Source: Luminiphilus sp. (GTDB lineage: Bacteria > Pseudomonadota > Gammaproteobacteria > Pseudomonadales > Halieaceae). From it: DNA of 64,000 bases. Position 1 is the first letter of the stretch; every line of letters begins with the position of its first letter. The stretch is taken from contig JAAXJC010000151.1 of assembly GCA_012270045.1 (NCBI GenBank), forward strand, positions 1-64,000, given 5' to 3'. Under the pieces are notes generated by a model. That model did no database searches, was not told the origin of the DNA, and saw only the letters and a program-made list of their open reading frames with translations. Positions 12,670 through 52,092 of the stretch are shown in pieces. Both the position numbers and the translations under genes were made by a program.

Positions 12670-13818
12670 CTACCAGGGCGGGATAGTCTTTTCGGCGGGA
12701 AACCAGGGCAGTGCCACGATCTCCGCGGATCGGCGGTCTCCGGGGAACTCCAGGTCTATTTTTGTGCCGGGTGAACTCAATTCGGTTGGCACATTGACCA
12801 GCGCGATGTTGTGCTCAAGCCTGGGTGAGTAGACGCAGCGGGTGATGTGCCCCACGGTTTCTGCGGCGACCGTTACCGGCAGGAAGTGTTCGTTGGGTGC
12901 TATCGGTGCACCGCCGAAATTGGCCCCTACCAGCCGGCGGGGCGTGCCCTGCCTGGCAATGCGCTGCAGCGCGGCTTTGCCAATGTAGTCCTGGGGTTTG
13001 TCGATATCCAGCAGTCGCGCCATGCCGATGGTGAAGGGGTTGTCGTTGAGGGTGATGTCGGAGCAGTAGGACAGCAGGCCCCCTTCGACGCTCCTCGCCA
13101 GGGATGGGCAGGCGGGCTTGATGCCGAATTCAGCACCGGCGTCCATGCACAGCTGCCACAGCTCGTTGCCCCGTTGGCCGTCCTGGAGTATCAGTTCATA
13201 GCCCAGCTCGCCGCTCCAACCGGTGCGACTGAGCACCAGCGGAATGCCCTTTAGTTCCACTTCCCGGCACTGGTAGTAACCCAGCTCCAGTGCCAGCTCG
13301 CCAAACAGCTCGTAAGCAACCCGAGGAGCCAGGGGCCCCTGAAGCTGCAGGGGGGAGGCGTCGGGCTCATGGACCGTTACGTCGAAAGAGGTCATCGCGG
13401 CGGCGGCCTTGGCCCACAGCAGCACGTCGCCGTCGCCGGGGGATAGCCAGAAGCGATCCTGTTCCAGGCGGTACAGAACCGCGTCGTTGACAATGCCCGC
13501 GTCCTCATCCAGGAAAATGACGTAGCGGCAACGGCCCACCGGGCAACCGTCAATATCCCTGGGGGTCAGAAGCTGTGTGAAGGCCACGGCGTCGGGGCCA
13601 CTGATCTCTACCTGCCGTTCAGCCGCCACATCCCAGAGGCTGACGCCGCTGACAATGGACCAGTATTCTGCAGTGGTATCACCGTAGCTGGTGGGCATGT
13701 ACATGTGGTTGTAGTTGGTAAAGGCCCGGGCTCCCGCGGCCACCGTCGCGTCATAAAAGGGTGATTTGCGCACCCGGGGACCCAGTGTCAGCAGGGGTGG
13801 GTTTCCTTGGGTATTCAT
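12670..13818 (-). CDS. GcvT/aminomethyltransferase-fold protein of the DMSP-demethylase (DmdA)-like type
   Basis: RVRKSPFYDATVAAGARAFTNYNHMYMPTSYGDTTAEYWSIVSGVSLWDVAAERQVEISGPDAVAFTQLLTPRDI...; VLSRTGWSGELGYELILQDG; resembles the remembered DmdA N-terminal pattern. Confidence 0.65.
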   Translation of the reverse strand: MNTQGNPPLLTLGPRVRKSPFYDATVAAGARAFTNYNHMYMPTSYGDTTAEYWSIVSGVSLWDVAAERQVEISGPDAVAFTQLLTPRDIDGCPVGRCRYVIFLDEDAGIVNDAVLYRLEQDRFWLSPGDGDVLLWAKAAAAMTSFDVTVHEPDASPLQLQGPLAPRVAYELFGELALELGYYQCREVELKGIPLVLSRTGWSGELGYELILQDGQRGNELWQLCMDAGAEFGIKPACPSLARSVEGGLLSYCSDITLNDNPFTIGMARLLDIDKPQDYIGKAALQRIARQGTPRRLVGANFGGAPIAPNEHFLPVTVAAETVGHITRCVYSPRLEHNIALVNVPTELSSPGTKIDLEFPGDRRSAEIVALPWFPAEKTIPPW

Positions 13819-29816: not shown

Positions 29817-30533
29817 TCATGCAATGTGTTTGGGAAACGCCTGTTGCAGATAGGCCCGTGCCACCGCTTTGGCCCGAGCTTTATTCAGGTCCCGGGGCGC
29901 CACCAGCAAGCTGAGCCAGAGGCCATCTATCAGCGCCAGGTAACCGGTTGCCAGCTGTCGTGCGTCCCGGTCCCGGTACTGGCCATCGCTGATGATGGCT
30001 TCGAACAGCGCCTCTGTTTTCCTGGCGGCCAGCCTATCGCTGGCCGAGCAAATGGTCTGATACACCGGCCGGGCCCCCGCTTCGCCATAGTAGGCAAACC
30101 AGACCGCCATCTTCTGCCGCTGGGTGACGCCGCGACTGAGTTGGAAGTCCAGCAGTTGCTCCAGGGTGGCTGCCAGTGACGGCGGGCTGTCATTCGCGAG
30201 GATACCCAGCAGACCTTCGTTGTACTCCCGGGTCACATGGCGCAGGGTTTCCGTCAGCAGATTTTCCTTGCTGCGGAAATGCAGGTTGGCAATCCCCAGA
30301 CTGAGTCCCGCTTCCCGGGTGACCAGTTGCATGGTGGTGGCCGACAGGCCGTGGGCAGCGATGCAACGGATTGTGGCGTCTATCAGTTGCTGGCGTCGTT
30401 CGGAACGGGGCCGCACCTGGCGTCGCTTTTTCTCAGGCTGCTCTATTGTGGTTGGTGTTTGGCTTGTGGGCACGGACAGGCCTGGAGCGAGGACTATGAC
30501 GGTGAACTCTAGCAAGGCTGCCGCAAATGGCAA
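29817..30533 (-). CDS. TetR/AcrR family regulator (BetI-like)
   Basis: RSERRQQLIDATIRCIAAHGLSATTMQLVTREAGLSLGIANLHFRSKENLLTETLRHV HTH domain. Confidence 0.88.
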   Translation of the reverse strand: MPFAAALLEFTVIVLAPGLSVPTSQTPTTIEQPEKKRRQVRPRSERRQQLIDATIRCIAAHGLSATTMQLVTREAGLSLGIANLHFRSKENLLTETLRHVTREYNEGLLGILANDSPPSLAATLEQLLDFQLSRGVTQRQKMAVWFAYYGEAGARPVYQTICSASDRLAARKTEALFEAIISDGQYRDRDARQLATGYLALIDGLWLSLLVAPRDLNKARAKAVARAYLQQAFPKHIA

Positions 30534-30540
30534 TCATTAA

Positions 30541-30560
30541 ATGAATGTTTGTTCATTCAT
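30541..30560. promoter_or_regulatory. candidate TetR-family operator
   Basis: ATGAATG-TTTGTT-CATTCAT perfect 7-bp inverted repeat in the gap between divergent TetR and flavoprotein genes. Confidence 0.65.
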
Positions 30561-30623: not shown

Positions 30624-32240
30624 GTGAATCAGTACGATGCCATCGTCATTGGCGCGGGCCACAACGGCCTCACCAATGGCGCCTATCTCGCCAAAGCAGG
30701 GCTCAAGGTGGCCGTGCTGGAGCGCAATCCCTACATCGGCGGCGCCACGGTCAGCCGTGAACTGCACAAGGGCTGGTACTACTCAAACTGCTCCTACGTG
30801 GCCAGTCTGCTGCGTCCCGAGATCACCCGAGATCTTGAATTGCCCCGCCATGGGCTGCAGGTCGTACCCTTTGGTGGTGGCGCAACCTTTATGCGCAATG
30901 GCGATCACCTGGGCAGTTACAGTGATCATGATCGCCATTACCGCGAGATTGCGCGACATTCCAAACGCGATGCCAACGCCTACGACCGCTACGTGTCTGA
31001 TACCAGTCGCCAGACCAAGTTAATTCGACCCTACCTGCTGAAAACAGCCCCCGATCCCACCTCGCTAAAGCCCAGGGACCTGCGGGACCTGGTCGATTTT
31101 GCCCGCTCCTTCACATCCATGGGCGAGGAGGGCCTGCTCGATACCATCAAATTCTGGACCGGCAGTGTCGGGGATTATCTCAACGAGTATTTCGAGACCG
31201 ATGTGCTGAAAGCCCACCTGGCGGGTAGTGGCATTATCGGTACAGCCCTGGGTGTTTATTCCCCGGGTACCGCCTACGTTCTACTGCACCACTACATGGG
31301 AGATGTCGATGGCAATGTCGGCGCCTGGGGCTTCGCCCGGGGCGGTATGGGTGCCATTGCGGACGCCCTGTCCAAGGCGTTCCAGTCCTACGGCGGCGAC
31401 GTCATCTGCGACGCCAATGTCGATGAGATCATTGTCCGGGACGGCCAGGCGAAGGGTGTTGCCCTCAAGGATGGCACCGAATACCACGCCGACATTGTGG
31501 TCTCCAATCTCGACCCCAAGCGTACGTTCCTGGACATCACCAACCCCAAAGACCTGCCCGAGGACGTGCTGCAGAAGGCGCGCAACTTTAAGATTCGCGG
31601 CTCCTCCGGGAAGCTGAACATCGCCCTGGACGGCCTGCCCATCTTCAATGGCCTCGATCCCCGCAGCCGGCTGATGGCTGGTGACCTGCACTTCAGTGAT
31701 TCCCTGGAGCGCCAGGAGCGTGCCTATGACGACTGGAAGAACGGCACATGGTCCAAGGATCCCTACCTGGACATGATGATCCCATCCCTGACCGATCCCA
31801 CCATGGCGCCCCCCGGTAAACACATGATGTCGGTGTTTGTGCAGTACGCGCCGCCCAAGATCGAGGGACGGGACTGGACCGACGAGGACAAGGACGGCTT
31901 CGAAAAATCCGTGCTCGACCAGATCTCCAATTACAGTCCCAACTTCCGCGACCTGATCCTGCACTGCGAGACGCGAACACCCCGGGAAATTGAGGCGGAA
32001 GTTGGCCTCACCGAAGGCAATATCTTCATGGGTGAACTGACCTTTGATCAGCTGCTGTTCAACCGGCCCTTCCCCGGCTACGCCCAGTACCGGGGGCCGA
32101 TCAAGGGCATGTATATGTGCAGTTCCGGCACCCACCCCGGTGGTGGGGTGATGGCGGCTCCCGGAGCCAACGCTGCCCGGGAGATCCTGATGGATCTGAA
32201 GCGGCCCAACACGGTACCGGGAGGATACGCCGATGACTGA
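30624..32240 (+). CDS. PYROXD2/phytoene-desaturase-like FAD-dependent oxidoreductase
   Basis: VNQYDAIVIGAGHNGLTNGAYLAKAGLKVAVLERNPYIGGA dinucleotide-binding motif; C-terminal GMYMCSSGTHPGGGVMAAPGANAAREIL; GTG start (alternative ATG at 30582). Confidence 0.87.
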   Translation: MNQYDAIVIGAGHNGLTNGAYLAKAGLKVAVLERNPYIGGATVSRELHKGWYYSNCSYVASLLRPEITRDLELPRHGLQVVPFGGGATFMRNGDHLGSYSDHDRHYREIARHSKRDANAYDRYVSDTSRQTKLIRPYLLKTAPDPTSLKPRDLRDLVDFARSFTSMGEEGLLDTIKFWTGSVGDYLNEYFETDVLKAHLAGSGIIGTALGVYSPGTAYVLLHHYMGDVDGNVGAWGFARGGMGAIADALSKAFQSYGGDVICDANVDEIIVRDGQAKGVALKDGTEYHADIVVSNLDPKRTFLDITNPKDLPEDVLQKARNFKIRGSSGKLNIALDGLPIFNGLDPRSRLMAGDLHFSDSLERQERAYDDWKNGTWSKDPYLDMMIPSLTDPTMAPPGKHMMSVFVQYAPPKIEGRDWTDEDKDGFEKSVLDQISNYSPNFRDLILHCETRTPREIEAEVGLTEGNIFMGELTFDQLLFNRPFPGYAQYRGPIKGMYMCSSGTHPGGGVMAAPGANAAREILMDLKRPNTVPGGYADD

Positions 32241-33792
32241 TTACGACGCGATCATTATTGGTGCTGGCCATAACGGCCTCATCTGCGGCGCCTATCTGGC
32301 CAAGGCCGGTAACAAGGTTCTGGTTGTCGACGGCCGGGATCAGCCCGGAGGCTGCGCCAGTACCCGTGAAATAGCCCCTGGATTTCAGGTATCTGACTGC
32401 GCCCAGTGGTTACAGCAGTTCGATGACGCCGTGGTCCGGGATCTGGGTCTGGACAAAGCCGGCCTGCAAGTGGGTGCCGCGAAACGGACCATTGCCCTGC
32501 AGGCCGATGGCGATCATCTGACCATCGACGGCGATTTGCTGCGGGGTGCCGGCATCGGTACCCAGGACCAGGCGGCATACCAGTCGTTCCGCCAGCAGAT
32601 TGATGTGTTTGCCAAACTCATGCTCAAGCTCTACCGCAGCCGGGCCCCGAAATTGGTGGAAGCTGACTGGAGCGACCGGGTAACCCTCATGAAGCTCGGG
32701 CTTGGGCTCAAGATGATGGGCAAGGCCAACATGCAGGACCTGATGCGCCTCGCGTTGATCAATATCTACGACGTGATGAACGAGAACTTCGACCATCCCG
32801 GTCTCAAGGCAGCACTGGCCATGGATGCGATCACCGGCACCAACATGGGGCCGCGCTCCCCCAATACGGTATACACCTACCTGCACCGTGCCATGGGCCG
32901 GCAATTGCAGCAGGGCGGTGTCAGCCAGGTCATGGGGGGTATGGGGGCCCTGGGCACGGCGCTGCAGAAGGCTGCCGAGGCCTGCGGAGTCCGGGTGCAG
33001 CTGGGCAGTTCAGTGCAGCAGATTCTCAAGGAGGGCGATCGGGTCACCGGTGTTGTCCTGGCCGATGGCAGCTCCCTGCGCGCCACTGCAGTGATCTCCA
33101 GCGCCGACCCCACCACCACCTTCAGGGACCTGCTCGGTTACCAGCATCTGGAGACCGGCATGGCCCGCCGGGTGGCCCAGTACCGCACACGCAGCGGCAC
33201 CGCGAAACTGCACCTGGCGCTATCGGGTCTGCCGGCATTTTCCGGACTGGAAGGCAAGGCCCTGGCCCAACGCCTGGTCATTGCTCCGACCATGGACGCC
33301 ATTGAATCTGCTTTCAACCCGCTGAAATATTCAGAGTGTGGCCCCAGCCAGGTGTTTGACATCAGCATCCCCAGCATTGAGGACGCGAGTCTGGCCCCGG
33401 AAGGGCAACACGTGCTGACTGCCCTGGTGCACTACCTGCCGTATGAGCCCGACGGCGGCTGGCAGAGCCAGCGGCAGCCGGTACTCGATAACCTGTTGGC
33501 CCAGTTGGAGCACTATGCGCCGGGCCTGAAGGAGCAGGTGGTGGCCTCGGAGTTACTGGTACCCCCGGATATCGAAGCCGCCTTCGGCGTCACCGGTGGC
33601 AACTGGCACCACGGCGAACTGTCCATCGACCAGGCTCTGATGATGCGTCCGTTCCCGGGTTCCACCCAGTACCGCACCGCGGTGGATGGTCTGTTCCTTT
33701 GCGGCGCGGGGGCACACCCCGGTGGCAGCCTGATGGGCCTGCCCGGCCGCAACGCTGCCCAGGAAATCATCAAGCAAGGAGTCCTGTCATGA
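32233..33792 (+). CDS. PYROXD2/phytoene-desaturase-like FAD-dependent oxidoreductase (second copy)
   Basis: MTDYDAIIIGAGHNGLICGAYLAKAGNKVLVVDGRDQPGG; GLFLCGAGAHPGGSLMGLPGRNAAQEI; overlaps preceding stop. Confidence 0.88.
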   Translation: MTDYDAIIIGAGHNGLICGAYLAKAGNKVLVVDGRDQPGGCASTREIAPGFQVSDCAQWLQQFDDAVVRDLGLDKAGLQVGAAKRTIALQADGDHLTIDGDLLRGAGIGTQDQAAYQSFRQQIDVFAKLMLKLYRSRAPKLVEADWSDRVTLMKLGLGLKMMGKANMQDLMRLALINIYDVMNENFDHPGLKAALAMDAITGTNMGPRSPNTVYTYLHRAMGRQLQQGGVSQVMGGMGALGTALQKAAEACGVRVQLGSSVQQILKEGDRVTGVVLADGSSLRATAVISSADPTTTFRDLLGYQHLETGMARRVAQYRTRSGTAKLHLALSGLPAFSGLEGKALAQRLVIAPTMDAIESAFNPLKYSECGPSQVFDISIPSIEDASLAPEGQHVLTALVHYLPYEPDGGWQSQRQPVLDNLLAQLEHYAPGLKEQVVASELLVPPDIEAAFGVTGGNWHHGELSIDQALMMRPFPGSTQYRTAVDGLFLCGAGAHPGGSLMGLPGRNAAQEIIKQGVLS

Positions 33793-34973
33793 ACGCGCCC
33801 CAACGAGACACCATGCTGCTGCCAACACCCTTCCACTCCCGGGTCGAGGCCATGTGTGAGCTGAATGACTGGGGCAACTGGATGGGTTACACCACCCCCA
33901 ACGCCTATTTCGATGTCGAGCTGGAGTACTTTGCCATTCGCAGCACCACCGGTGTATTTGACCTGTCGCCGATGAACAAATACCGGATCACCGGGCCGGA
34001 TGCCGAGGCCTTTCTCAACCGTATGGTGACCCGTAATGTCAGCAAACTGGGGGTCAATCGCGTCGGTTATGCGGTCTGGTGTAATGACGCCGGCGAGGTC
34101 ATGGACGACGGCACGATTTTCCGACTGGGGGAGCAGGACTTCAGGCTCTGTTCCTACCAGCGCGCTGACGACTGGCTGCACTGGTGCACCCTGGGATTCG
34201 ACGTCACCATCAGCAATGAAAGCGAGGACATTGCGGGCCTGGCCGTGCAGGGTCCCACCTCCTGTACCGTGTTGAAGCTGCTGGGCTGTACTGACCTCGA
34301 TCAGCTGAAGCCCTTCGGTATCGCCCACTTCACCTTTGAGGGCGCCCCCATGATGGTGAGCCGCACCGGCTTTACCGGTGATCTGGGCTACGAGGTCTGG
34401 GTGGCGCCGGCCCAGGCCGAGGCGCTCTGGGACCAGCTGTTTGAGCTGGGACGGGATTACCTGATCAAACCCATCGGTTCATACGCCCTGGATATTGCCC
34501 GCATAGAGGCGGGCTTCCTGCAGGCTCACGTGGACTTCGTACCCTCTGAGGAAGTGGTCCGGAACGGGCGTACCCGCAGCCCCTTTGAGTTGGGCCTGGA
34601 GTGGCTGGTTGATTTTTCCAAGCCCCTGTTCAACGGCCGTGCTGCACTGCTTGCGGAAAAGGCCCGGGGTTCCCGCTATCGGTTTGCCATGCTCGACATC
34701 GAGGGCAACAAACCTGCGGAACACTCCTTCATCATGAAGGGCGACAAAGTCGTCGGTACCGTGACTTCGGCGGCCTGGTGTCCGACCGTGAAGTCGAACC
34801 TGGCCTATGCCCAGATCGAAATGCCCCACGGCGCTGTCGGTGACCAGCTGACAGCAGAAATTTACTACCAGCGCGAGCTGCACTGGACCCGGCTGATGGC
34901 CCCCTGCAAGGTTATCGACGGACCCCTGTTCAATCCCAAGCGCAGGCGGCAGACGCCGGCACCGCCGTTCTGA
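33789..34973 (+). CDS. GcvT-like aminomethyltransferase / demethylase
   Basis: FAIRSTTGVFDLSPMNKYRITGPDAEAFLNRMVTRNVSKLGVNRVGYAVWCNDAGEVMDDGTIFRL; MMVSRTGFTGDLGYEVWV; ATGA overlap with the preceding gene. Confidence 0.85.
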   Translation: MNAPQRDTMLLPTPFHSRVEAMCELNDWGNWMGYTTPNAYFDVELEYFAIRSTTGVFDLSPMNKYRITGPDAEAFLNRMVTRNVSKLGVNRVGYAVWCNDAGEVMDDGTIFRLGEQDFRLCSYQRADDWLHWCTLGFDVTISNESEDIAGLAVQGPTSCTVLKLLGCTDLDQLKPFGIAHFTFEGAPMMVSRTGFTGDLGYEVWVAPAQAEALWDQLFELGRDYLIKPIGSYALDIARIEAGFLQAHVDFVPSEEVVRNGRTRSPFELGLEWLVDFSKPLFNGRAALLAEKARGSRYRFAMLDIEGNKPAEHSFIMKGDKVVGTVTSAAWCPTVKSNLAYAQIEMPHGAVGDQLTAEIYYQRELHWTRLMAPCKVIDGPLFNPKRRRQTPAPPF

Positions 34974-35009: not shown

Positions 35010-36266
35010 ATGCATTTAATCGCCACACAGGTTGATGACTCCCGGGAACAACTGCGGGGCAAGCTGGCCGCCCAGGGAGAGCGGCCGGGGTATGCCATCG
35101 ACCCCTACTTCTATCGCTCGCACCTGGTGCACGAACTGGAGCTGGAGCACCTGATTTTCAAAAGCTGGATTTATGCCCTGCATAGCAGCGAGATACCCGA
35201 GGTGGGTGACTACCAGATTCTGGAAATTGGTGAGGACGCGATCATTGTGGTTCGTGTGCCCGACGGGTCGATCAAAGCCATGCACAACATCTGTCGGCAC
35301 CGGGGTGCCAGGGTCTGCGAGGGCCCTTCGGGCAATCGAAAAACCTTCGTCTGCCCCTATCACGGCTGGGTTTACGAACTGGATGGTTCCCTGAAAGCCG
35401 CCCGCGAAACCCACATCATGCCGAATTTCGACAAGGGCCAGTTGGGGCTAAAGCCCGTGGGCTGCGTTGAATACATGGGAATGGTATTCATCAACTGCGA
35501 TCCCAACGCCGGTGACCTGGTGGCCTCCCTGGAGCAGATGAGGGTGCCATTGGGTGCCTACGACCTGGCCCATGCCAAGGTGGCGGACCGCCGCACCTAC
35601 CGGGTCGATGCCAACTGGAAGCTGGCCATAGAAAATTACCTGGAGTGTTACCACTGCGCCACCAGCCACCGGGCCTACGCCCGTCTGCATACGCTCAAGG
35701 ACCTGGAGGAAAAGTCCGCGCCGGTGGTGGCCCAGATGCTGGAGCACGCAGACGAGAAAACAGGCATACCCGGTATTGGCCAGACCCACACCAAGATCTA
35801 CCTGGACGCCGATGAGTTTGCCACCTGCGCCCACACCATGCGCTACGGTTTGTATGAGGGCATGGTTACGGGCAGTGAGGATGGCCAGCCGGTGGCGCCG
35901 TTGATGGGCCAGTTCAAGGGCTATGACGGTGGTGCGGGTGATTTCCAGATGGGACCGCTGACCTTCATGCTGAACTATCCCGATCACTGCGTGCTCTACC
36001 GTTTTCTGCCCCGGTCACTGACAGAGACCGATATGGAGCTGGTCTGGTTTGTTCGGGGGGATGCGGTTGAGGGGCAGGATTATGATCTGGAGAAACTCAC
36101 CTGGCTGTGGCATCACACCACACTCGAGGACGAGTACATCATCACCCGTAACAGTCTTGGGGTGAACTCAAGGTTTTTTGAGCCGGGCCCCTACCACGCC
36201 GAGTTTGAAGAAACCCTGCAGCAGTTCATCGCCTGGTATTTGCACACCATGGAGCAGGCTGCCTGA
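35010..36266 (+). CDS. Rieske [2Fe-2S] non-heme iron oxygenase, alpha subunit type
   Basis: CRHRGARVCEGPSGNRKTFVCPYHGWVYELDG Rieske motif; NWKLAIENYLECYHCATSH mononuclear iron motif. Confidence 0.9.
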   Translation: MHLIATQVDDSREQLRGKLAAQGERPGYAIDPYFYRSHLVHELELEHLIFKSWIYALHSSEIPEVGDYQILEIGEDAIIVVRVPDGSIKAMHNICRHRGARVCEGPSGNRKTFVCPYHGWVYELDGSLKAARETHIMPNFDKGQLGLKPVGCVEYMGMVFINCDPNAGDLVASLEQMRVPLGAYDLAHAKVADRRTYRVDANWKLAIENYLECYHCATSHRAYARLHTLKDLEEKSAPVVAQMLEHADEKTGIPGIGQTHTKIYLDADEFATCAHTMRYGLYEGMVTGSEDGQPVAPLMGQFKGYDGGAGDFQMGPLTFMLNYPDHCVLYRFLPRSLTETDMELVWFVRGDAVEGQDYDLEKLTWLWHHTTLEDEYIITRNSLGVNSRFFEPGPYHAEFEETLQQFIAWYLHTMEQAA

Positions 36267-36276
36267 AAGCCGTGGT

Positions 36277-37185
36277 TTAACCATCGGACCCGGGTTCTAC
36301 CGGGAGCCCTACACCGCCAGATGTCGTTTCGGGTACCACTCTTTTTGCACCCACCAGTTGCTGGATACGGGACTGCCAGGCCGACAGGTTGGCCTCAATC
36401 ATGGCGAAGCCCCCCAGCCACAGCAGGCTGTCGTAGGTGTACAGGTAATGCCCGTACCAACCCCAGGACAGGGCACAGCTGATGATCAACAGGTAGCTGA
36501 TGTGGGGTGTTTGTCGTATCGCCCTGGGTAATAAACCGCCAGCTATATTGCGCCGCTTCATCCAGGCCAGGGCAGCGAAGGCGAGACCGGCGGCCAGCCA
36601 CGCCAGGCACTCCACAAAGCTGGCCGCCCCCTGCACCGTGGCGATGCGCAGGCTGTGGGCATCCACCAGGGTGCCCGCTTCAAAGCTCCAGTAGCTTTGT
36701 TCCCCATTAGCCAGACCCAGGCATTCGGCGGCGGGCAGAGGGGTGTAAACCTGGTTATTCAGAGTGTAGAGGTCCCCGTTTCCGGTGCTGCAGAACAGCT
36801 CATCGACCGACGTCGGTTCGGCGTCCAGTACGGCGGCAAAGTCCGCGGTGTAGACCACCAGGGTGTGGGCCAGTATGGCAAAGCAGCCCCAGCGCAGCAG
36901 GTTCAGCGCCACCCGTATTCGCGGTCTGGCGTAGACCTGCTGCCAGTAGGTCTCGATCTCGAAGACCAGCAGCAGGCCAAACCAGCCGGCGACATCCAGG
37001 GAGGTGGCAAAGGCGCCGGTGATGTCCCAGACCGACTGGTAACCCTCCCTGGCCAGGGTTCTGTAGTCCTCACCAAGGTACAACAGGAAATTGATAAACA
37101 GCAGGCTGTAAATGGGCCACTTCAGGTAGCCCTGGTAGCGGGCCATCAGGCCCAGCGTGTTCCCGGCCAGGGCGCCCGGTGTCAT
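36277..37185 (-). CDS. multi-pass membrane protein of unknown function
   Basis: Several TM helices (YSLLFINFLLYLG, FGLLLVFEIETYW, GCFAILAHTLVVYTADF, LLIISCALSWGWYGHYLY); follows PhyH gene on the same strand. Confidence 0.62.
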   Translation of the reverse strand: MTPGALAGNTLGLMARYQGYLKWPIYSLLFINFLLYLGEDYRTLAREGYQSVWDITGAFATSLDVAGWFGLLLVFEIETYWQQVYARPRIRVALNLLRWGCFAILAHTLVVYTADFAAVLDAEPTSVDELFCSTGNGDLYTLNNQVYTPLPAAECLGLANGEQSYWSFEAGTLVDAHSLRIATVQGAASFVECLAWLAAGLAFAALAWMKRRNIAGGLLPRAIRQTPHISYLLIISCALSWGWYGHYLYTYDSLLWLGGFAMIEANLSAWQSRIQQLVGAKRVVPETTSGGVGLPVEPGSDG

Positions 37186-37201
37186 CTCCCGGTGCAGGGG
37201 G

Positions 37202-37993
37202 TCAGGAGTCAAACCACAGGCCGTCCGGGTCCTCGGGCCAGACCCCCAGGTGGGGGCCATGGGCCTGGAAACCGAGCAGCCGCCGTACCGATTCCGGTAG
37301 CGCTGCCACCACCTCAGGGGGCAGTGTCAGGTACTGGTTCTCTTCCTGACGTAACCAGCCAAGGGTGTAGGTGTTGACCAGTGCCCGGCGCGGTTTGTCA
37401 CTGGCATTGGCGCCGCCACCGTGCAGGGTCGAACCCAGATACAGGACCACAGAACCTTTGGACATGGCTGCGGGTAGGCTGTCCCGACTGGCATCGCCCG
37501 GATGGCTGCCCTGGCGGTGGGAGCCCGGTATCACGCGGGTAGCGCCGTTTTCTTCGGTGAAGTCGTCCAGGGCCCAGAGGGCCGAAATCTGCATCTCGAA
37601 GGGGAAATACTGGGTCGGGTAAATCGAGTCATCGGCGTGCAGTACCTGGGCCTTTTCCCCCGGCAGGATCTCGATGGCGGTAGTGCTGCCAACCTGCAGG
37701 ACCTCGCAGTGGGGCCCCAGTATGGCTTCTGCCAGGGCCAGAATTTGCGGCTCTGCGAACAGGTGCTGGAACTCCCCCGAGTGCTCTGCAACACCGCCGA
37801 CGCGGCGGGTCAGGTAGCCGTTGAAGTCATTCTGGAACTCCGCGCCCAGGCGCTCGTATTTGGGTTGCAAGTCGGCGTTGAACGCATCGATCCTGGTTCC
37901 GGAGGCCATGTCTTCGATGATGACGGCACCGGCTTCCCTCAGGGCTTCGATCTTGGGGTCCATATCCCCGTTGGGGGTAAATCGCGGGATCAT
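37202..37993 (-). CDS. phytanoyl-CoA dioxygenase (PhyH) family protein
   Basis: QVLHADDSIYPTQYFPFEMQISALWALDDFTEENGATRVIPGSHRQG; VVLYLGSTLHGGGANASDKPRRALVNTYTLGWLRQEENQ. Confidence 0.88.
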   Translation of the reverse strand: MIPRFTPNGDMDPKIEALREAGAVIIEDMASGTRIDAFNADLQPKYERLGAEFQNDFNGYLTRRVGGVAEHSGEFQHLFAEPQILALAEAILGPHCEVLQVGSTTAIEILPGEKAQVLHADDSIYPTQYFPFEMQISALWALDDFTEENGATRVIPGSHRQGSHPGDASRDSLPAAMSKGSVVLYLGSTLHGGGANASDKPRRALVNTYTLGWLRQEENQYLTLPPEVVAALPESVRRLLGFQAHGPHLGVWPEDPDGLWFDS

Positions 37994-38140
37994 AGGGGTT
38001 CCTTACCAATGGCCTGCATCCATGCGAGTTGAATCCTCGCCGCCCAGACTGAACAGGGGTTTATGGTAACAGGACGCTGTGGGCTAACAAGGGACTGTGC
38101 ACGGGGGTGCGCTTACCGAAGTGGTCAGGTGCAGTGCATT

Positions 38141-39442
38141 TCAAACGCCGGCCTTGGGTTCTCCCGGTGTGAAGGGTTGGTCCACCCGAATGAACAGCCA
38201 CAGCACAGCCCCTGCCAGGGCCACGCCGGTCCCCGTTGCCAGTGCCGCCACCCAGCCAATGTGCTGGGCCAGGAAAGGCATCAGGGGTGCCACCACGATA
38301 CCCGCGGCGTTACCGCCGGTGTTCATCAGGCCGCAGGCGGGTGCGGTGTATGCCCCGGCAACAAAGGTCTGGGCCGACCAGAAGGCCCCCTCCGCAAATT
38401 GCGTAAAGGCGAAGCACAGGGACAGCAGGGCCACGGCAACATAGGGCGACGGGGCATAGAGCCCGGCGTACAACAGGCTGCCGGCGCCGACCAGGCCGAT
38501 CATGGCGGGCAGTCTGCACCCCAGACGGGGGCCTAGGCGCCTGCACAGGGCATCGCAGGTCAGGCCTCCCAGGGTGGCCATCACGGCGCCGGTGATCCAG
38601 GGCAGGGCGGCCAGAAAACCGGTTTCCAGGATGGTAAAGCCCAACTCCTTTACCAAATAATGGAAAAACCATGTGAAGAAGAGATAGAACACGTAGTTGA
38701 GCCCGAAGTAGGCGGCGGTCAGCAGCAGGGTTTCCCGGTTGCGAATGAGCTGGGTCCAGGCGCCGAAGCCCGCCTCGACTGTCAGCCCTTCCCGATTGGC
38801 CCTGATCAGCGCCAGTTCCCCCTCGGTCATGCCCGGATGGTCAGCCGGATTATCCCGCGCATACCACCACCACAGGCTGAACAGTCCAAGTCCCAGGGGA
38901 ATGAACACATAGAAGGAGGCGCGCCAGCCCCAGTAGACTGCGACCGTGGCCACCAGCGGCTGGGCCGCCGCGGCGCCCAGGGTCAGTCCGGTACTGGATA
39001 CGGCATTGGGCAGTGCCCAGTGACCGACAGGAAACCAGCGCTCTACGGCCGCCGCCTGCACCGGGTACATGGGCGCGTGGGCGGCCCCCAGTACAAAGCG
39101 CACCAGCATCAGAACCGCCATGATACCGGCGCTGGACTTGACCAGCGTGCCCGGCAGCAAGCCGGTCAGGGCTGAAGCTGCCATGCCCAGCAGCCCGACG
39201 GTCATCAGCGTGCGCCGGGGGCCGAAGCGGGCACCGGCGATACCGCCGGGCAACTGGAACAGGGCGTAGCCCCAGATAAAGCTGGCGAAGATCCAACCCA
39301 TCTCAAGCTCGCTCAGGGCCAGCTCGGGCATCATGAGTTCACCCGCCACGTGGATGTTCTGGCGCATCAGGTAGGCCAGGAAGCTGAGCATGAACAGGAT
39401 GGCGAAGAATCGCCAGCGCACGGGTAACGGGTAAGGTTTCAC
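38141..39442 (-). CDS. MFS transporter (anion:cation symporter-like)
   Basis: 12-TM-like; MRQNIHVAGELMMPELALSELEMGWIFASFIWGYALFQLPGGIAGARFGPRRTL. Confidence 0.87.
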   Translation of the reverse strand: MKPYPLPVRWRFFAILFMLSFLAYLMRQNIHVAGELMMPELALSELEMGWIFASFIWGYALFQLPGGIAGARFGPRRTLMTVGLLGMAASALTGLLPGTLVKSSAGIMAVLMLVRFVLGAAHAPMYPVQAAAVERWFPVGHWALPNAVSSTGLTLGAAAAQPLVATVAVYWGWRASFYVFIPLGLGLFSLWWWYARDNPADHPGMTEGELALIRANREGLTVEAGFGAWTQLIRNRETLLLTAAYFGLNYVFYLFFTWFFHYLVKELGFTILETGFLAALPWITGAVMATLGGLTCDALCRRLGPRLGCRLPAMIGLVGAGSLLYAGLYAPSPYVAVALLSLCFAFTQFAEGAFWSAQTFVAGAYTAPACGLMNTGGNAAGIVVAPLMPFLAQHIGWVAALATGTGVALAGAVLWLFIRVDQPFTPGEPKAGV

Positions 39443-39520
39443 CCCGGTATTACCTCTCGATGGGGTTGTGACAGACCGGTGTGTTGCCCAGACCGCCTGT
39501 CCGTGGGCGCCCGGCTTTCG

Positions 39521-40618
39521 TCAGTGGTACTCATCGAGGCAGGCCTGTATATAACGACGCAGGTCGAGACTGTAGTCTTCCATGGGCGCGTAGTAGCCGC
39601 GTTCGAATACCGGGTTTTGCATACCCCGTTGCACGCTTTCGCAAATTTGCCAGTCCTGTTGGTTGACCCGATCCCAGAACGTCACGGCATCGCTGGGGTC
39701 AAACCGGGTTTTGGCCAACTCGCTGGGGTGAAATAAGAAGTCGCAGCGCACCCGGGTCTCTGCTACTGACTCCGGCCAGACGTAGAAAGCCGCCACATGA
39801 TCCATGGCCAGGCTGACCATCAGGTTGGGGTAAAACAACTCACCCTTGTGGTGGGTTTTTTCGGTACCGCTGAGGCCCGGGAAGGGGGCCCTGTCGGTGG
39901 TGCCTGTGGCCGTGAAGGTGTAGGCACCCTCCCGGTGGGGTACACCCTCATCCCAGTCCAGCTCGCTGCCGCCGCCCTGCCGGAAAGCGGGCACGACCTG
40001 GCAGAGCTCCGGGTGCACCGGACCGCAGTGATAGCACTCGTTGTAGTTCTCGAGAATCACCTTCCAGTTGGCGCCGACCCGGTAGTCGATACTGGCGCCA
40101 GTGCGCAGCTCGGCCAACGGATAGTTCGCTATCCGGTCGGTGCCGGGACCCAGGGCTTCGGCGAGGGTTGCCCCCCGGCGGTCGTCGAGACAGATGAAAA
40201 TAAAACCGCCCCATTCATCAACCCGGACCGTGTGCAGCTGTGTCGCTCCCGGCTCAACCGGCAGGTGAGGTGCAGCCCGCAGGGTGCCATCGAGGTGGTA
40301 GTTCCAGGCGTGATAGGGGCAGGTGATGCTGCGCCCAAAGCTGCCATAGCGCATGTCGGTATCGGGCATCGCCACCAACTCGGCGCCCCGGTGTCGGCAG
40401 ACGTTGTAGAACCCGCGTAGCTCGCCGTCTTCATGCCGAAGCACCAGCACCGATTCCCTGCCCAGCCGCAGGCCCTGGTAGTCGCCAGGGTTCGGTACCT
40501 GTTCAGCCCTACCCACGCAGACCCAACCCGGTCGGAAGACGGCGTCATATTCCCGCCGGTACAGGTCGGCATCCAGATAGCTGGCCCGGGGCAGGGTCTG
40601 TTCCAGGGATTCCAGCAC
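39521..40618 (-). CDS. Rieske [2Fe-2S] non-heme iron oxygenase (glycine betaine/choline monooxygenase-like clade)
   Basis: CRHRGAELV...CPYHAWNYHLDGTLRAAPH; NWKVILENYNECYHCGPVHPELCQVVP. Confidence 0.9.
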   Translation of the reverse strand: MLESLEQTLPRASYLDADLYRREYDAVFRPGWVCVGRAEQVPNPGDYQGLRLGRESVLVLRHEDGELRGFYNVCRHRGAELVAMPDTDMRYGSFGRSITCPYHAWNYHLDGTLRAAPHLPVEPGATQLHTVRVDEWGGFIFICLDDRRGATLAEALGPGTDRIANYPLAELRTGASIDYRVGANWKVILENYNECYHCGPVHPELCQVVPAFRQGGGSELDWDEGVPHREGAYTFTATGTTDRAPFPGLSGTEKTHHKGELFYPNLMVSLAMDHVAAFYVWPESVAETRVRCDFLFHPSELAKTRFDPSDAVTFWDRVNQQDWQICESVQRGMQNPVFERGYYAPMEDYSLDLRRYIQACLDEYH

Positions 40619-40630
40619 CGCCCTGTCTCC

Positions 40631-42760
40631 CTAGGATCCGGTTGCCGGGTTCAGGATCACCACCGGCTGGGGATCCTCCAGGGTGATGGGCTCATCCCGC
40701 CGGTATAGCCCGGCATCGCCTTCGAGCAGGCCCCGGGCGAACCCGTGGCCACTGTGCACAGCGTGGGCGATGGCTCCCGGAGCCAGGGCATCACCCACCA
40801 GGTTAATCCCCGTGCCCTGCAGGCCCTTGTGCCCTCCGGCCCGGGACTGCAGCAGGGCCTGGTACAGACTGGTATTGGGCAGGCGCAACCCGACCAGGAC
40901 GATGGCATCGACAGGGCGTTCCAGGGTCTGGCCATTGAACAGGTTGCTGAGTGTGGCCTGCTCGCCGTCGAAGCCATTCAGGTTGGTGGTGGTCAGGATC
41001 TCGACCTGCTGCTCACCCAGAGCCTTGTACACGTAGGGCAACTCATTGGTCATGAACGTCCACGCGGAGGCGTGACCTGCGGGTGTTGCGTAGACCACAT
41101 TGCACCCCCGGCGTCCCAGATGTTCGGCAATGACACCGCCCAGATAATAATTGTCGTAGTCGAACACCAGGATGCGCTCGCCGCTGATGCGGTTGGCGAA
41201 TACATCCTCGGGTGTGAAAACCTTGGGCCCATCCAGCGGCTGGTCGGGAATTTCCAGCGCTGAGTACAGGTGTCGGGTCCACTGTGCGCCGGTGGCCAGG
41301 GCAATATGGTCCGGTGCCAGGTCGGCGATGGACTCTGCGTCCATGGGACTGTCGGTATACATGGCGACGTTTCCCAGTTGGGACAGTGCCCAGACCCGGT
41401 AGTCCCGGACCCGACGCCATACCCCAAGACCCGGTAGCGCGCTTTCATCGAGTACCCGGCCGCCCCAGTCGCTGCGCTGCTCGGCCAGGGTCACCTGAAA
41501 GCCCTGCCGGGCGGCCACCAGCGCGGCTTCCAGACCCGCCGGTCCACCCCCCACCACCAGCAGGTGTTCGGGTTTGTCAGTCTGCCGGAATTGCTCGGGA
41601 TGCCAGTCCCTGCGCCACTCCTCCCCGGCAGTAGCGTTTTGGGTGCAGCGCACCGGCACACCGTCGTGCCAGCTGGCGATACAGATGTTGCAGCCAATAC
41701 ATTCCCGTATGGCGTCGCTTTCGCCCCGGCGCACTTTGTCGGGTAAAAACGGGTCGGCAATACTGGCCCGGGCGCCGCCGATCAGGTCCAGCACGCCGCG
41801 TTTGATCTGGGACACCATGGTATCCGGTGAAGTAAATCGGCCGACACCGACCACCGGGCGATCGGTGACCGTCCTGACGAAATCGATGATGGGTTCGTGG
41901 GCCCCTTCGGGCCGAAACCGGGACGCGCCGCAGTCATTTGGGCTCGAGTCCATTTTTACGTCCCACAGGTCGGGCACCTGTGACAGCAGGCTGACGACAC
42001 CGTGGGCCTCGCTCTCGTAATGGTCACTGGCTTTGGCGCGCAATTCCTCCAGGCTGATGCGCAGGGCCACCGCGGCACGGCCGCCGGCCTCATCCCGGGT
42101 GACCTCCAGCATTTCCCGAACGAAGCGGGTTCGGTTTTCGAGACTGCCGCCGTAGCCATCGGTGCGCCAGTTATATTCCGGCAGCAGGAATTCATAGCCC
42201 AGGTAGCCCATGCCGGCGTAGACGTAGATGATATCGAAGCCGGCATCCAGGGCCCGCCGGGTCGCGGCCCGCTGCCAGTTGAGGACCGCGTCTATGTCCC
42301 TGCTGTCCATGGGCTTGGGCCGCTGCTGTCCCATGAAGCCCACATGGGTTGCCGCCCAGGGCACACCCGAGGGTGACAGGGGGGGCAGCCGGGACGTTCT
42401 GTTCATCACCACCGCGCCACCGTGCCACAGTTCCACCGCGGCGAGGCTGCCGTGGCGATGCACCGCCTCCGTGGTCAGGGCGTGGGAGGCGATGTCGGCG
42501 TCGTTCCACAGCCGCGCGTAGGGCAGTGGTGAGTCGTCCGAACTGGGGTGGATGGACACGGCCCCGGTGCTGACCACGCCCCAGCCTCCCTCGGCTTTCA
42601 TGCCCCGAAAAGACGCGCGCACCCGGGGGTTGGCTTCGGTCATACCACTGGCATGGGGCACCTGGTAAAACCGGTTGGGTGCGACCACGGGACCGATCTG
42701 GACGGGTTCAAACAGAATCCGGTGCTGGGGATGGCAGAGGCTGAGGTCGCGATTCCCCAC
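40631..42760 (-). CDS. TMADH/dimethylglycine-demethylase (DgcA)-like OYE-FAD flavoprotein
   Basis: HRILFEPVQIGPVVAPNRFYQVPHASGM; AEGGWGVVSTGAVSIHPSSDDSP; AGFDIIYVYAGMGYLGYEFLLPEYNWRTDGYGGSLENRTRF; CIGCNICIASWHDGVPVRCTQNATAGEEWRRDWHPEQFRQT (4Fe-4S cluster region); LVVGGGPAGLEAAL. GTG start assumed. Confidence 0.88.
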   Translation of the reverse strand: MGNRDLSLCHPQHRILFEPVQIGPVVAPNRFYQVPHASGMTEANPRVRASFRGMKAEGGWGVVSTGAVSIHPSSDDSPLPYARLWNDADIASHALTTEAVHRHGSLAAVELWHGGAVVMNRTSRLPPLSPSGVPWAATHVGFMGQQRPKPMDSRDIDAVLNWQRAATRRALDAGFDIIYVYAGMGYLGYEFLLPEYNWRTDGYGGSLENRTRFVREMLEVTRDEAGGRAAVALRISLEELRAKASDHYESEAHGVVSLLSQVPDLWDVKMDSSPNDCGASRFRPEGAHEPIIDFVRTVTDRPVVGVGRFTSPDTMVSQIKRGVLDLIGGARASIADPFLPDKVRRGESDAIRECIGCNICIASWHDGVPVRCTQNATAGEEWRRDWHPEQFRQTDKPEHLLVVGGGPAGLEAALVAARQGFQVTLAEQRSDWGGRVLDESALPGLGVWRRVRDYRVWALSQLGNVAMYTDSPMDAESIADLAPDHIALATGAQWTRHLYSALEIPDQPLDGPKVFTPEDVFANRISGERILVFDYDNYYLGGVIAEHLGRRGCNVVYATPAGHASAWTFMTNELPYVYKALGEQQVEILTTTNLNGFDGEQATLSNLFNGQTLERPVDAIVLVGLRLPNTSLYQALLQSRAGGHKGLQGTGINLVGDALAPGAIAHAVHSGHGFARGLLEGDAGLYRRDEPITLEDPQPVVILNPATGS

Positions 42761-43290
42761 CGGTATGTCCTTTGGCTCAGGCTTCACCCCACCCCCCGAC
42801 TTTCTGTGTTTTCTGCAGTGACAGATTGAGTGGCTTTTGTGGCTAACGCAATACCCCGGAAGACATTCCTGAGGGTGTTGGATAATGCCCGCTCCGACTC
42901 CCCTGGGTGCCAAGCACGGTCCCCGCGCTTACAACTGGCTGGCCACCGAGCACGGTCACCCCTTTCCGAGTGGACCGATTTAATTTCATCATGACCATGG
43001 TGGTGCTTCCGGGTATATCCCTGCCCCTGCTGGTGGTGTCCCTGTCTCGGGTCATCACCCTGTGGCCGGCGGGTTAAGGATTGCCGCGATCTTTACAGGC
43101 TGACCCACAGGGCAACAACCAGCCCTGATACGCTGTCCGCTGGCACCGGACTGAGACCCAGAAAGACCACTGCCCGGCAGGCAGTACTGTCTTCCGTTGG
43201 TGCTCACCCGAAGGCACACCAGCGCCTGACCCAAAGAGAAAAAATTACCCACTATTTGGCGGGCTGGGGCACACTATCGGGCCCAGTAGG

Positions 43291-49843: not shown

Positions 49844-51139
49844 GTGGTCGCCGATGTCGACACCATGCCTTCGGGGTGCGGTTCAACGTGGCCGGTGCAG
49901 GGCACCGGGGTTGGGGTGGACATGGACGCGAATGATGGCAATCCGATCAGCGATGGCGTCGCCGTGCCTGACTTTTATCACTACCCCCAGGTCCCCCTGG
50001 CCGCTGCCGAGATGGCGGGGGATTTTCTCAACCTGACCTGGCCCGATGGCACACAGCTGCGCTGCCACCGCTACTGGCTACGCGAAAACGCCATCGGTCT
50101 GGGCGGCATTGATCCCGCCACCCGGGAGGGCCTGCTGGATCCGGCCGAGTTGCGGGACAGCATGTTGGTCGCCGCTGTCGAAGTGACCGCTGCAGGGGAT
50201 CTCACCGTTTATTGGCAACCCGATAACAGTTGCTGCCAATACCACGGCGGTTGGCTACGGCACATCGCCGAGGGTCAGCACCGGCCCGCCAGTTGGTTGC
50301 CTGAGCCAAGACCCTGGCGCTCGGAGACACTGGCCCAGCCGCCTCGACGCCTCGCACCCGCGGCGCTGGTGGATGACGGGGTGCTCTGCGATGCTCTCAA
50401 TGACCTCATTGAGCTGGGGGTCTGTGTGTTGGAGCAGGCGCCATCGGAACCCGGCTTCCTGAGCACCCTGGCGGAACGTATCGGTCCGGTTAGGGATAGC
50501 AACTTCGGAGCCCTGTGGGATGTGCTGGCCGATGTCGCCCTCGCCGGTGATGCCGCCACCAACAGCACGGCCAATACGGGATTTCGACTGGGCCCCCATA
50601 CTGATTTGCCGACCCGGGAGGTGCCCCCCGGCTACCAGTTTTTGCATTGCCTGGTGAATGAGGCCGACGGTGGCGAGTCGACCCTGACCGATGGGGCTGC
50701 GCTGGTGGCTGCCCTGCGTGAGACCAGCCCGGAAGACTATGAACTGCTGAGCACCCGCCACTGGATTTTCTTCAATCGCGGTCCCGGTATAGACCACCGC
50801 TGGTCGGCGCCCATCATCGATCATTCCTGCGGCGACGGCCTGCTGCCCACCCTGCGTGCGTTCTACCCGGTACGGGCGTTCCCGGATATGCCCGAGTCCG
50901 ACGTGCCCCGGGCCTATGAGGCGTTGCGGCGCTTCCACCGGCTCGCGGATGACCCCCGGTTTGAACTGACCTTCCGCCTGGGGCCCGGAGACATAATGTG
51001 CTTTGATAATCGCCGGGTGTTGCACGGCCGCAAGGCGTTTTCGGGTTCCGGCAAACGCCATCTGCAGGGCATCTACATGGACCGGGATGAAATCCTGTCC
51101 CGGGCCCGGGCGCTCAATCGGGCCCGGGCGGCCCACTGA
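49844..51139 (+). CDS. gamma-butyrobetaine dioxygenase-like (DUF971-type N-domain + TauD/BBOX)
   Basis: LNLTWPDGTQLRCHRYWLRENA N-domain; NTGFRLGPHTDLPTREVPPGYQFLHCLVNEADGGESTLTDG HxD; GDIMCFDNRRVLHGRKAF; start may be ATG 49922. Confidence 0.83.
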   Translation: MVADVDTMPSGCGSTWPVQGTGVGVDMDANDGNPISDGVAVPDFYHYPQVPLAAAEMAGDFLNLTWPDGTQLRCHRYWLRENAIGLGGIDPATREGLLDPAELRDSMLVAAVEVTAAGDLTVYWQPDNSCCQYHGGWLRHIAEGQHRPASWLPEPRPWRSETLAQPPRRLAPAALVDDGVLCDALNDLIELGVCVLEQAPSEPGFLSTLAERIGPVRDSNFGALWDVLADVALAGDAATNSTANTGFRLGPHTDLPTREVPPGYQFLHCLVNEADGGESTLTDGAALVAALRETSPEDYELLSTRHWIFFNRGPGIDHRWSAPIIDHSCGDGLLPTLRAFYPVRAFPDMPESDVPRAYEALRRFHRLADDPRFELTFRLGPGDIMCFDNRRVLHGRKAFSGSGKRHLQGIYMDRDEILSRARALNRARAAH

Positions 51140-51180
51140 TAAAAAACCCTGAAACCCACTTCAATTGAACAGGATGCGAT

Positions 51181-52092
51181 ATGCCTCTGGCCATGCGAAA
51201 AAAAGTATTTATCACGGCGGCCCTGACCGGCTCCGGCAGCACCCAGGACCGCAGCGACAAGGTTCCCCGCAGTCCGGAGCAAATCGCCCAGGCAGCAATC
51301 GATGCCGCCAAAGCGGGTGCTGCGGTGGTGCACTGCCACGTGCGCGACCCCGACACCGGGGCCCCCGCCCGGGATGTGCACCTGTACCGTGAGGTTGTAG
51401 AGCGAATCAGGTCCTCAGAAGTCGACGTGGTGATCAACCTGACCGCAGGTATGGGCGGGGATATTGTTTTCGGTCCCACCGATGCGCCCCTGCCCCTGGC
51501 GGAGCAGGGTACCGACATGGTGGGGGCCGCTGAGCGGGTCGCCCATCTGGAAGCCTGTCTGCCCGAAATCGCCACCCTCGATTGCGGCACCATGAATTTC
51601 GCCGAGGCCGACTACGTCATGACCAATACCCCAGGTATGCTCAGGGATATGGCCGGTCGCATGGCGGATCTGGGTATCCAGATCGAAATAGAGGCCTTCG
51701 ACACCGGCCATCTCTGGTTTGCCCGTCAGCTGGTGGACGAGGGCATCATACCGGCGCCGGTGATGGTGCAGCTGTGCATGGGTATCCCCTGGGGGGCCCC
51801 CGATGACCTCAACACCTTCATGGCCATGGTCAACAACGTGCCCCGGGACTGGCTGTACTCGGCCTTCTCCATTGGCCGACACCAAATGCCCTATGTGGCG
51901 GCGGCGGTGTTGTCAGGTGCCAACGTGCGTGTGGGACTGGAAGACAATCTCTGGCTGGAGAAGGGTCGCCTGGCAACCAATGCCGAGCTGGTCGAGCGGG
52001 CGGTGACCATCATTGAGGCGATGGGGGTAGAGGTCATGACCCCCGATGAAGTTCGCACAGAGCTCCAGCTCACCAAACGAGCCTTGCCCTGA
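51181..52092 (+). CDS. beta-keto acid cleavage enzyme (BKACE, DUF849), putative dehydrocarnitine cleavage
   Basis: KVFITAALTGSGSTQDRSDKVPRSPEQIAQAAIDAAKAGAAVVHCHVRDPDTGAPARDVHLYREVVERI. Confidence 0.88.
   Translation: MPLAMRKKVFITAALTGSGSTQDRSDKVPRSPEQIAQAAIDAAKAGAAVVHCHVRDPDTGAPARDVHLYREVVERIRSSEVDVVINLTAGMGGDIVFGPTDAPLPLAEQGTDMVGAAERVAHLEACLPEIATLDCGTMNFAEADYVMTNTPGMLRDMAGRMADLGIQIEIEAFDTGHLWFARQLVDEGIIPAPVMVQLCMGIPWGAPDDLNTFMAMVNNVPRDWLYSAFSIGRHQMPYVAAAVLSGANVRVGLEDNLWLEKGRLATNAELVERAVTIIEAMGVEVMTPDEVRTELQLTKRALP

Follow-up and report, generated by a model that had tools for sequence, protein, structure and literature searches.

Folate-coupled N-demethylation is known from enzymes in which DAO-type flavin domains or metal domains are joined to a GcvT domain. 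In dimethylglycine oxidase/dehydrogenase and in heterotetrameric sarcosine oxidase (SoxBDAG), the oxidation of an N-methyl amine by a flavin domain is combined with a GcvT-type folate domain and yields methylene-THF; the module described here is proposed to act likewise. However, the flavin domain of those enzymes is of the DAO type, whereas the module has a CrtI-type pair of flavoproteins, A and B, and its GcvT-like protein is a separate chain. A further likeness exists to TMAO demethylase (Tdm), with which the GcvT-like protein aligns best, at residues 407–784, and shares a DDG motif. In contrast to Tdm, the module lacks the N-terminal half, and separate flavoproteins adjoin the folate protein instead. 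Flavoproteins of the CrtI/CrtO/PYROXD2 type have the same fold and FAD motifs as A and B, but both proteins score far below the CrtO and CrtI cut-offs and form a conserved pair that is accompanied by a folate protein. Among CrtI/PYROXD2 flavoproteins, none with two subunits is known to us. Clusters combining A and B with GcvT and a Rieske oxygenase were not described in the literature searched, which lay mostly outside subscription journals.

Gene layout and conservation of the A-B-GcvT module

The module is located in a window of 64,000 nucleotides from Luminiphilus sp. Gene A (30624–32240, plus strand, 538 aa) starts with GTG at 30624, stops with TGA at 32240 and codes for a slowly evolving FAD oxidoreductase subunit of CrtI/PYROXD2-type fold with the N-terminus VNQYDAIVIGAGHNGLTNGAYLAKAG. 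Gene B (32233–33792, plus strand, 519 aa; ATG at 32233, TGA at 33792; N-terminus MTDYDAIIIGAGHNGLICGAYLAKAG) codes for a paralogous FAD subunit that evolves faster than A. The gene of the GcvT-like, predicted folate-binding protein (33789–34973, plus strand, 394 aa) starts with ATG at 33789 and stops with TGA at 34973. The end of A and the start of B have 8 bp in common (ATGACTGA), and the end of B and the start of the GcvT-like gene have 4 bp in common (ATGA). The overlapping stop and start codons and the homology of the two flavoproteins (35% identity), both proposed in the initial annotation, are thus borne out, and the overlaps recur in relatives. The equimolar expression deduced from them does not follow, because B is preceded by a Shine-Dalgarno-like GGAGGA and the GcvT-like gene by AAGGAG. 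The A-B-GcvT order also stood; a Rieske gene on the same strand 3' of the module and a divergent BetI-like gene 5' of it had been missed, as had the methylated-amine and polyamine context, which points to N-methyl amines.

The comparison set comprised 80 genome loci, all of them gamma- or alphaproteobacterial. Where the available sequence left room, B followed directly 3' of A in 73 of 73 loci and GcvT directly 3' of B in 66 of 66; this adjacency exceeds chance. According to automated start calling, A and B overlap by exactly 8 bp in 56 of 71 loci. The overlap is 14 bp in five further loci, mostly from Rhizobiales, and four of the remaining ten likewise show 8 bp. A 4-bp overlap of B and GcvT (ATGA or GTGA) was found in 51 gene pairs. 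One scan confirmed at least 583 relatives of A. Across 370 class-level genomes, the lengths of open frames gave no sign of natural fusions of A with B or of either with GcvT. Paralogues with an in-frame TGA were flagged; in the one that was compared (L046), the aligned stretch stops at the gene's own stop codon. The trio is widespread in marine and soil bacteria, and its members are nearly inseparable.

In a phylogenetic tree, the A and B proteins of the modules form two clades (support of 97 for the B clade), and their split is older than all sampled module duplications. The duplicates include modules rearranged to B-A-GcvT. A split that precedes the duplications, together with the retention of the pair, would be expected if A and B formed an obligate enzyme. 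Both the age of the split and the conservation of the pair together with GcvT in two classes are consistent with the earlier suggestion that A and B may constitute a heteromeric enzyme. Alternatively, A and B could be separate enzymes of consecutive steps, for example for a first and a second N-methyl group or for two bonds, which are co-expressed with GcvT and do not share a complex. The FAD motifs are intact in both proteins, and co-translation is common among consecutive pathway enzymes, as this alternative would predict. We nevertheless consider it rather unlikely, given that no member of the A clade in the sampled loci lacks an adjoining B where there is room and that the pair survives module duplications. 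A lone A-like flavoprotein directly before gcvT does occur in Shinella (L061), but this protein lies outside both module clades.

Families of the flavoproteins and of the GcvT-like protein

The GxGHNG motif and the C-terminal HPGGGV motif of A are conserved. AF2 models of A and B, computed separately, had pLDDT values of 86.9 and 90.4. The closest PDB neighbour of the A model is a carotenoid desaturase, followed by amine oxidases, and the B model has the same fold neighbours; after the CrtI-type desaturases, these are nicotine, putrescine and monoamine oxidases. The best NCBIfam matches are to carotenoid enzymes as well, and all remain below their cut-offs: A reached 288 bits for CrtO (cut-off 1000) and 115 bits for crtI_fam (cut-off 238), B 245 and 139 bits, respectively. 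No carotenoid genes were found among the annotated genes of the window, and none in the annotated clusters of neighbours that recur in relatives.

The GcvT-like protein contains the Pfam domains GCV_T (198 bits) and GCV_T_C (37.7 bits). Its best NCBIfam match is the C-terminal domain of TMAO demethylase, and its best PDB match is the above-mentioned segment of Tdm; T-proteins, dimethylglycine dehydrogenase and sarcosine oxidase are the next nearest structures. The DDGT motif (DDG[T]) is present in 75 of 76 homologues. Judged by domains and DDG motif, the protein belongs to the GcvT superfamily of folate-binding proteins, and folate binding is predicted. More specific assignments were rejected. 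The score for the glycine cleavage T-protein (TIGR00528) was 161 bits at a cut-off of 235.9, and neither gcvH nor gcvP occurred among the annotated genes of the window or among the annotated neighbour genes. Full-length TMAO demethylase was matched with 269 bits (cut-off 1100) and at profile positions 387–760 only, the DMSP demethylase DmdA (PRK12486) with 132 bits (cut-off 410), and the sarcosine oxidase alpha subunit SoxA (TIGR01372) with 149 bits (cut-off 1164).

The fold neighbours and NCBIfam matches of A and B would also agree with a function as carbon-carbon desaturase or dehydrogenase whose target is the carbon skeleton of the substrate. The GcvT-like protein would then demethylate an intermediate of the same pathway independently, and not as part of one enzyme. 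Relatives with genes for an acyl-CoA ligase and an acyl-CoA dehydrogenase indicate that the carbon skeleton is indeed oxidized in the pathway. However, the A-B-GcvT adjacency is unbroken and stop/start overlaps occur in both classes, duplicated and reordered modules included. Furthermore, the GcvT-like protein carries no redox cofactor by itself, and in known oxidative folate-linked demethylases the GcvT-type part is paired with a flavin or metal domain. This division of labor is therefore distinctly unlikely in our view. An oxidation that passes a C1 unit to tetrahydrofolate, as had been suggested at the outset, is the chemistry that best fits the family scores, the PDB matches of the GcvT-like protein and the DDG motif.

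Rieske oxygenase, repressor and neighboring genes

The gene at 35010–36266 (plus strand) codes for a Rieske oxygenase alpha subunit with the Pfam domains Rieske and Ring_hydroxyl_A and PDB matches to 3n0q, 3vca and the demethylase 4qup. Its best NCBIfam match is the glycine betaine monooxygenase GbcA (NF058607) with 273 bits, which is below the cut-off of 670 and does not make it a member of that family. The motif ECYHCATSH at residues 212–220 comprises the bridging Glu (E212) and the pair Cys213/Cys216; among 52 homologues, 51 have the bridging Glu and 48 the Cys-X-X-Cys pair. A bridging Glu and a Cys pair have been described for Group V Rieske enzymes acting on quaternary ammonium compounds, the Cys pair being reported in some members of the group (PMC10952381, PMC7948474). 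By these residues, the protein carries the Group V signature and resembles GbcA and the stachydrine demethylase Stc2. No reductase gene was identified adjoining the Rieske gene. Homologues occur in 44 of the 80 loci, some of which end at contig edges, and the Rieske oxygenase is a non-obligate part of the module.

The BetI-like TetR repressor (29817–30533, minus strand) is divergent from the operon. It contains the Pfam domains TetR_N and TetR_C_6, the latter being the BetI-type C-terminal domain, and its score of 113 bits for BetI (TIGR03384; cut-off 201) places it outside the choline repressor family proper. A homologue is found in 54 of the 80 loci, on the strand opposite to A wherever the order could be determined; the Rieske and BetI-like genes are thus recurrent parts of the locus. 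With up to two mismatches allowed, the palindrome ATGAATGTTTGTTCATTCAT (30541–30560, strand not assigned) has no second site in the window, and it is the only perfect site in the genome. TGAAT-N(4-10)-ATTCA occurs 5' of A in 29 of 78 loci compared to 0.15 expected from shuffles, which makes the palindrome a conserved, operator-like candidate site of the BetI-like repressor.

In relatives, the locus contains additional genes for a PotFGHI-type importer, a PuuA-like (gamma-glutamylputrescine) synthetase, a transaminase, an acyl-CoA ligase and a dehydrogenase, and further for an acyl-CoA dehydrogenase, a PRK07036-type aminotransferase, a DAO-type oxidase, an aldehyde dehydrogenase and a glutamine amidotransferase. 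The genes for the PuuA-like synthetase, the DAO-type oxidase, the aldehyde dehydrogenase, the glutamine amidotransferase and the PotFGHI-like importer have counterparts in the gamma-glutamyl-polyamine (Puu/Pau) pathways. To our knowledge, these pathways have been described without GcvT, Rieske or A/B genes. The importer, synthetase and aminotransferase genes, and a putrescine oxidase among the fold neighbours of A and B, could suggest that the module oxidizes unmethylated polyamines by a spermidine-type C-N cleavage. GcvT would then be a structural partner or a scavenger of formaldehyde released by the Rieske enzyme. This is very unlikely in view of the Group V signature and the BetI-like regulators, which indicate quaternary ammonium compounds, and of the nearly invariant DDG motif. 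Moreover, PotF had no match in the window's own genome, so that a polyamine-like substrate is not directly transferable to this organism. Homarine catabolism was also considered and rejected; a paper that cites work on homarine ties this compound to Mgd and not to A/B-GcvT. The same genome contains a full-length soxA-like gene and several GcvT-containing frames of 700–850 aa, and the module is therefore an addition to such systems rather than a replacement.

Proposed pathway and possible relation to PYROXD2

With moderate confidence, we favor a folate-coupled N-demethylation of a methylated amine by the Rieske oxygenase, an obligate heteromeric A/B enzyme and the GcvT-like protein. Under control of the repressor, the pathway would strip N-methyl groups from its substrate. 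The Group V Rieske enzyme would remove one methyl group from a quaternary ammonium compound, in the manner of glycine betaine monooxygenase. The N-methyl amine so formed, first tertiary and then secondary, would be oxidized to the iminium by A and B, acting as an FAD amine oxidase or dehydrogenase. As the bound partner of A/B, the GcvT-like protein would capture the methylene group on tetrahydrofolate as 5,10-methylene-THF, and free formaldehyde would thereby be avoided. Given its strong constraint, A is probably the principal catalytic subunit; the faster evolving B, with its FAD motifs intact, probably tunes the substrate fit or relays electrons. Many relatives probably use a polyamine-like substrate with a primary amine.

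We presume that A and B belong to the same family as eukaryotic PYROXD2. PYROXD2 is a human disease gene, and little is known of its precise function (PMC8777681). Roughly half the variance in plasma N6-methyllysine is explained by variants of the human gene, which are also associated with dimethyllysine, N-methylpipecolate, TMA and DMA (PMC8109053, PMC3169529). These data bear on A and B only if PYROXD2 shares their family. It is a tentative idea, which we hold to be possible rather than probable, that A/B is a two-subunit folate-coupled N-methylamine oxidase of the CrtI/PYROXD2 family and that, by extension, human mitochondrial PYROXD2 oxidizes N-methyl amines, with the methyl carbon possibly passing into the folate metabolism of the mitochondrion. 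If true, the CrtI/PYROXD2-type pair would be a new build for a folate-coupled N-demethylase. Gamma- and Alphaproteobacteria would have an added route for the breakdown of methylated nitrogen compounds, with a substrate class that can be tested, and a reaction would be suggested for human PYROXD2.

Layout and conservation of the A-B-GcvT module

As described in the initial annotation, the genes of the flavoprotein A (30624-32240), its homologue B (32233-33792) and the GcvT-like protein (33789-34973) are located consecutively on the forward strand. A opens the trio; B overlaps it by 8 bp (ATGACTGA), and the GcvT-like gene overlaps B by 4 bp (ATGA). The proposed homology of A and B was borne out by an identity of approximately 35%. 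Equimolar synthesis, which had been deduced from the overlaps, is not implied because B and GcvT are each preceded by their own Shine-Dalgarno-like sequence (GGAGGA and AAGGAG, respectively); translational coupling is plausible. The Rieske oxygenase gene Rieske1 (35010-36266) follows on the same strand, and a BetI-like TetR gene (29817-30533, reverse strand) is divergent from A. The palindrome ATGAATGTTTGTTCATTCAT (30541-30560) between this repressor gene and A is a candidate operator and the sole perfect match in the window's genome. The region preceding A contains TGAAT-N(4-10)-ATTCA in 29 of 78 loci compared to 0.15 expected from mononucleotide shuffles, uncorrected for the kinship of loci; this motif occurs in several families and on one Rhizobium plasmid.

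Searches of the window's family showed that many genomes of its genus and family contain the A-B pair, and GcvT and Rieske genes accompany it in most of the stretches read. The order A-B-aminomethyltransferase with an upstream TetR gene is also found on plasmids of Rhizobium, Shinella, Parasedimentitalea, and Fuscovulum, and all three genes are present on an unannotated Ensifer plasmid. With each species represented by one genome, a scan confirmed at least 583 relatives of A. Among the 80 loci obtained from it, which are those closest to the query and to which these counts apply, B directly follows A in all 73 and GcvT directly follows B in all 66 loci with sufficient room. The A/B overlap is called as 8 bp in 56 of 71 loci and as 14 bp in five; 8 bp were also observed in four of the remaining ten. 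Rieske homologues occur in 44 of the 80 loci. The loci L046 and L052 of the window's family contain paralogous modules, some in the order B-A-GcvT. On a Shinella plasmid (L061:8995-11746), a single A-like flavoprotein gene is directly followed by gcvT and adjoined by CoA-ligase and BKACE genes; this is possibly a one-subunit version of the module.

Relationships of the encoded proteins

The best NCBIfam matches of A and B are carotenoid enzymes, with scores far below the cut-offs. For the AF2 models (pLDDT 86.9 for A and 90.4 for B), gamma-carotenoid desaturase was the first match, followed by nicotine, putrescine, and monoamine oxidases. The motifs GxGHNG and HPGG are kept in nearly all homologues of both proteins; B therefore seems unlikely to be a dead paralogue. 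In a flavoprotein tree of 68 rows, all module B's group in a single clade (support 97), and another clade (support 100) comprises 30 module A's. Both clades include the family's duplicated modules, among them those ordered B-A-GcvT; thus, the A/B division predates the module duplications. Between the window and alphaproteobacterial plasmid loci, A is 59-63% and B 36-40% identical. Judged by these identities rather than by a formal rate test, A appears to evolve more slowly than B.

The GcvT-like protein most closely resembles the C-terminal half of TMAO demethylase, followed by T-proteins, dimethylglycine dehydrogenase, and sarcosine oxidase. Its DDGT motif is shared by 75 of 76 homologues. 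Nearest to Rieske1 are GbcA in NCBIfam and 3n0q, 3vca, and 4qup in the PDB. Like the quaternary-ammonium Rieske enzymes for which these features were described (PMC10952381, PMC7948474), it has a bridging Glu and a Cys pair. A second block on the reverse strand (36277-42913) encodes a membrane protein, a PhyH-like oxygenase, an MFS protein, a further GbcA-like Rieske protein, in which ECYHC is found as well, and an OYE/FAD fusion containing a Cys-rich motif. OYE-like genes and relatives of this second Rieske gene recur close to the module in related loci.

Proposed reaction and substrate

On the basis of the findings presented here, Rieske1 would convert a quaternary to a tertiary amine, and A/B would oxidise an N-methyl group to an iminium, whose methylene GcvT would capture on THF. 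We infer the order of steps, a complex of A, B, and GcvT, and the substrate. Human PYROXD2 is presumably a member of the A/B flavoprotein family. It has been associated with N6-methyl- and dimethyllysine, N-methylpipecolate, N-acetyl-isoputreanine, TMA, and DMA (PMC8109053, PMC3169529). If PYROXD2 belongs to this family, these associations fit the same N-demethylation chemistry.

Neighbouring genes were clustered for 93 loci, 13 of which are family and plasmid stretches. The counts are lower bounds, as ORFs were called on loci that differ in length. In relatives, each component of a PotFGHI-type importer recurs in 24-34 loci, a gamma-glutamylputrescine synthetase-like gene in 28, and acyl-CoA dehydrogenase and acyl-CoA ligase in 26 each. 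Class III aminotransferases recur in 25 and 15 loci and a DAO-type oxidase near L-pipecolate oxidase in 17, while aldehyde dehydrogenase was seen in 14 and a glutamine amidotransferase in 8. In those bacteria, this recurrence suggests that the substrate carries a primary amine in addition to N-methyl groups. A search of the window's own genome gave no match for PotF, which weakens the argument for a primary amine in that genome.

Consecutive gamma-butyrobetaine dioxygenase-, BKACE-, and carnitine dehydrogenase-like genes (49844-53063) probably constitute a carnitine catabolic cluster. The window further contains a DmdA-like gene of the DMSP demethylase family (12670-13818; 328 bits, below the 410-bit cut-off), and in its genome (C77, C134, C113, C213) a full-length soxA-like gene and several frames of 700-850 aa with GcvT domains were found. 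The genome is therefore rich in methylated-amine enzymes, and for betaine itself the module is probably not needed.
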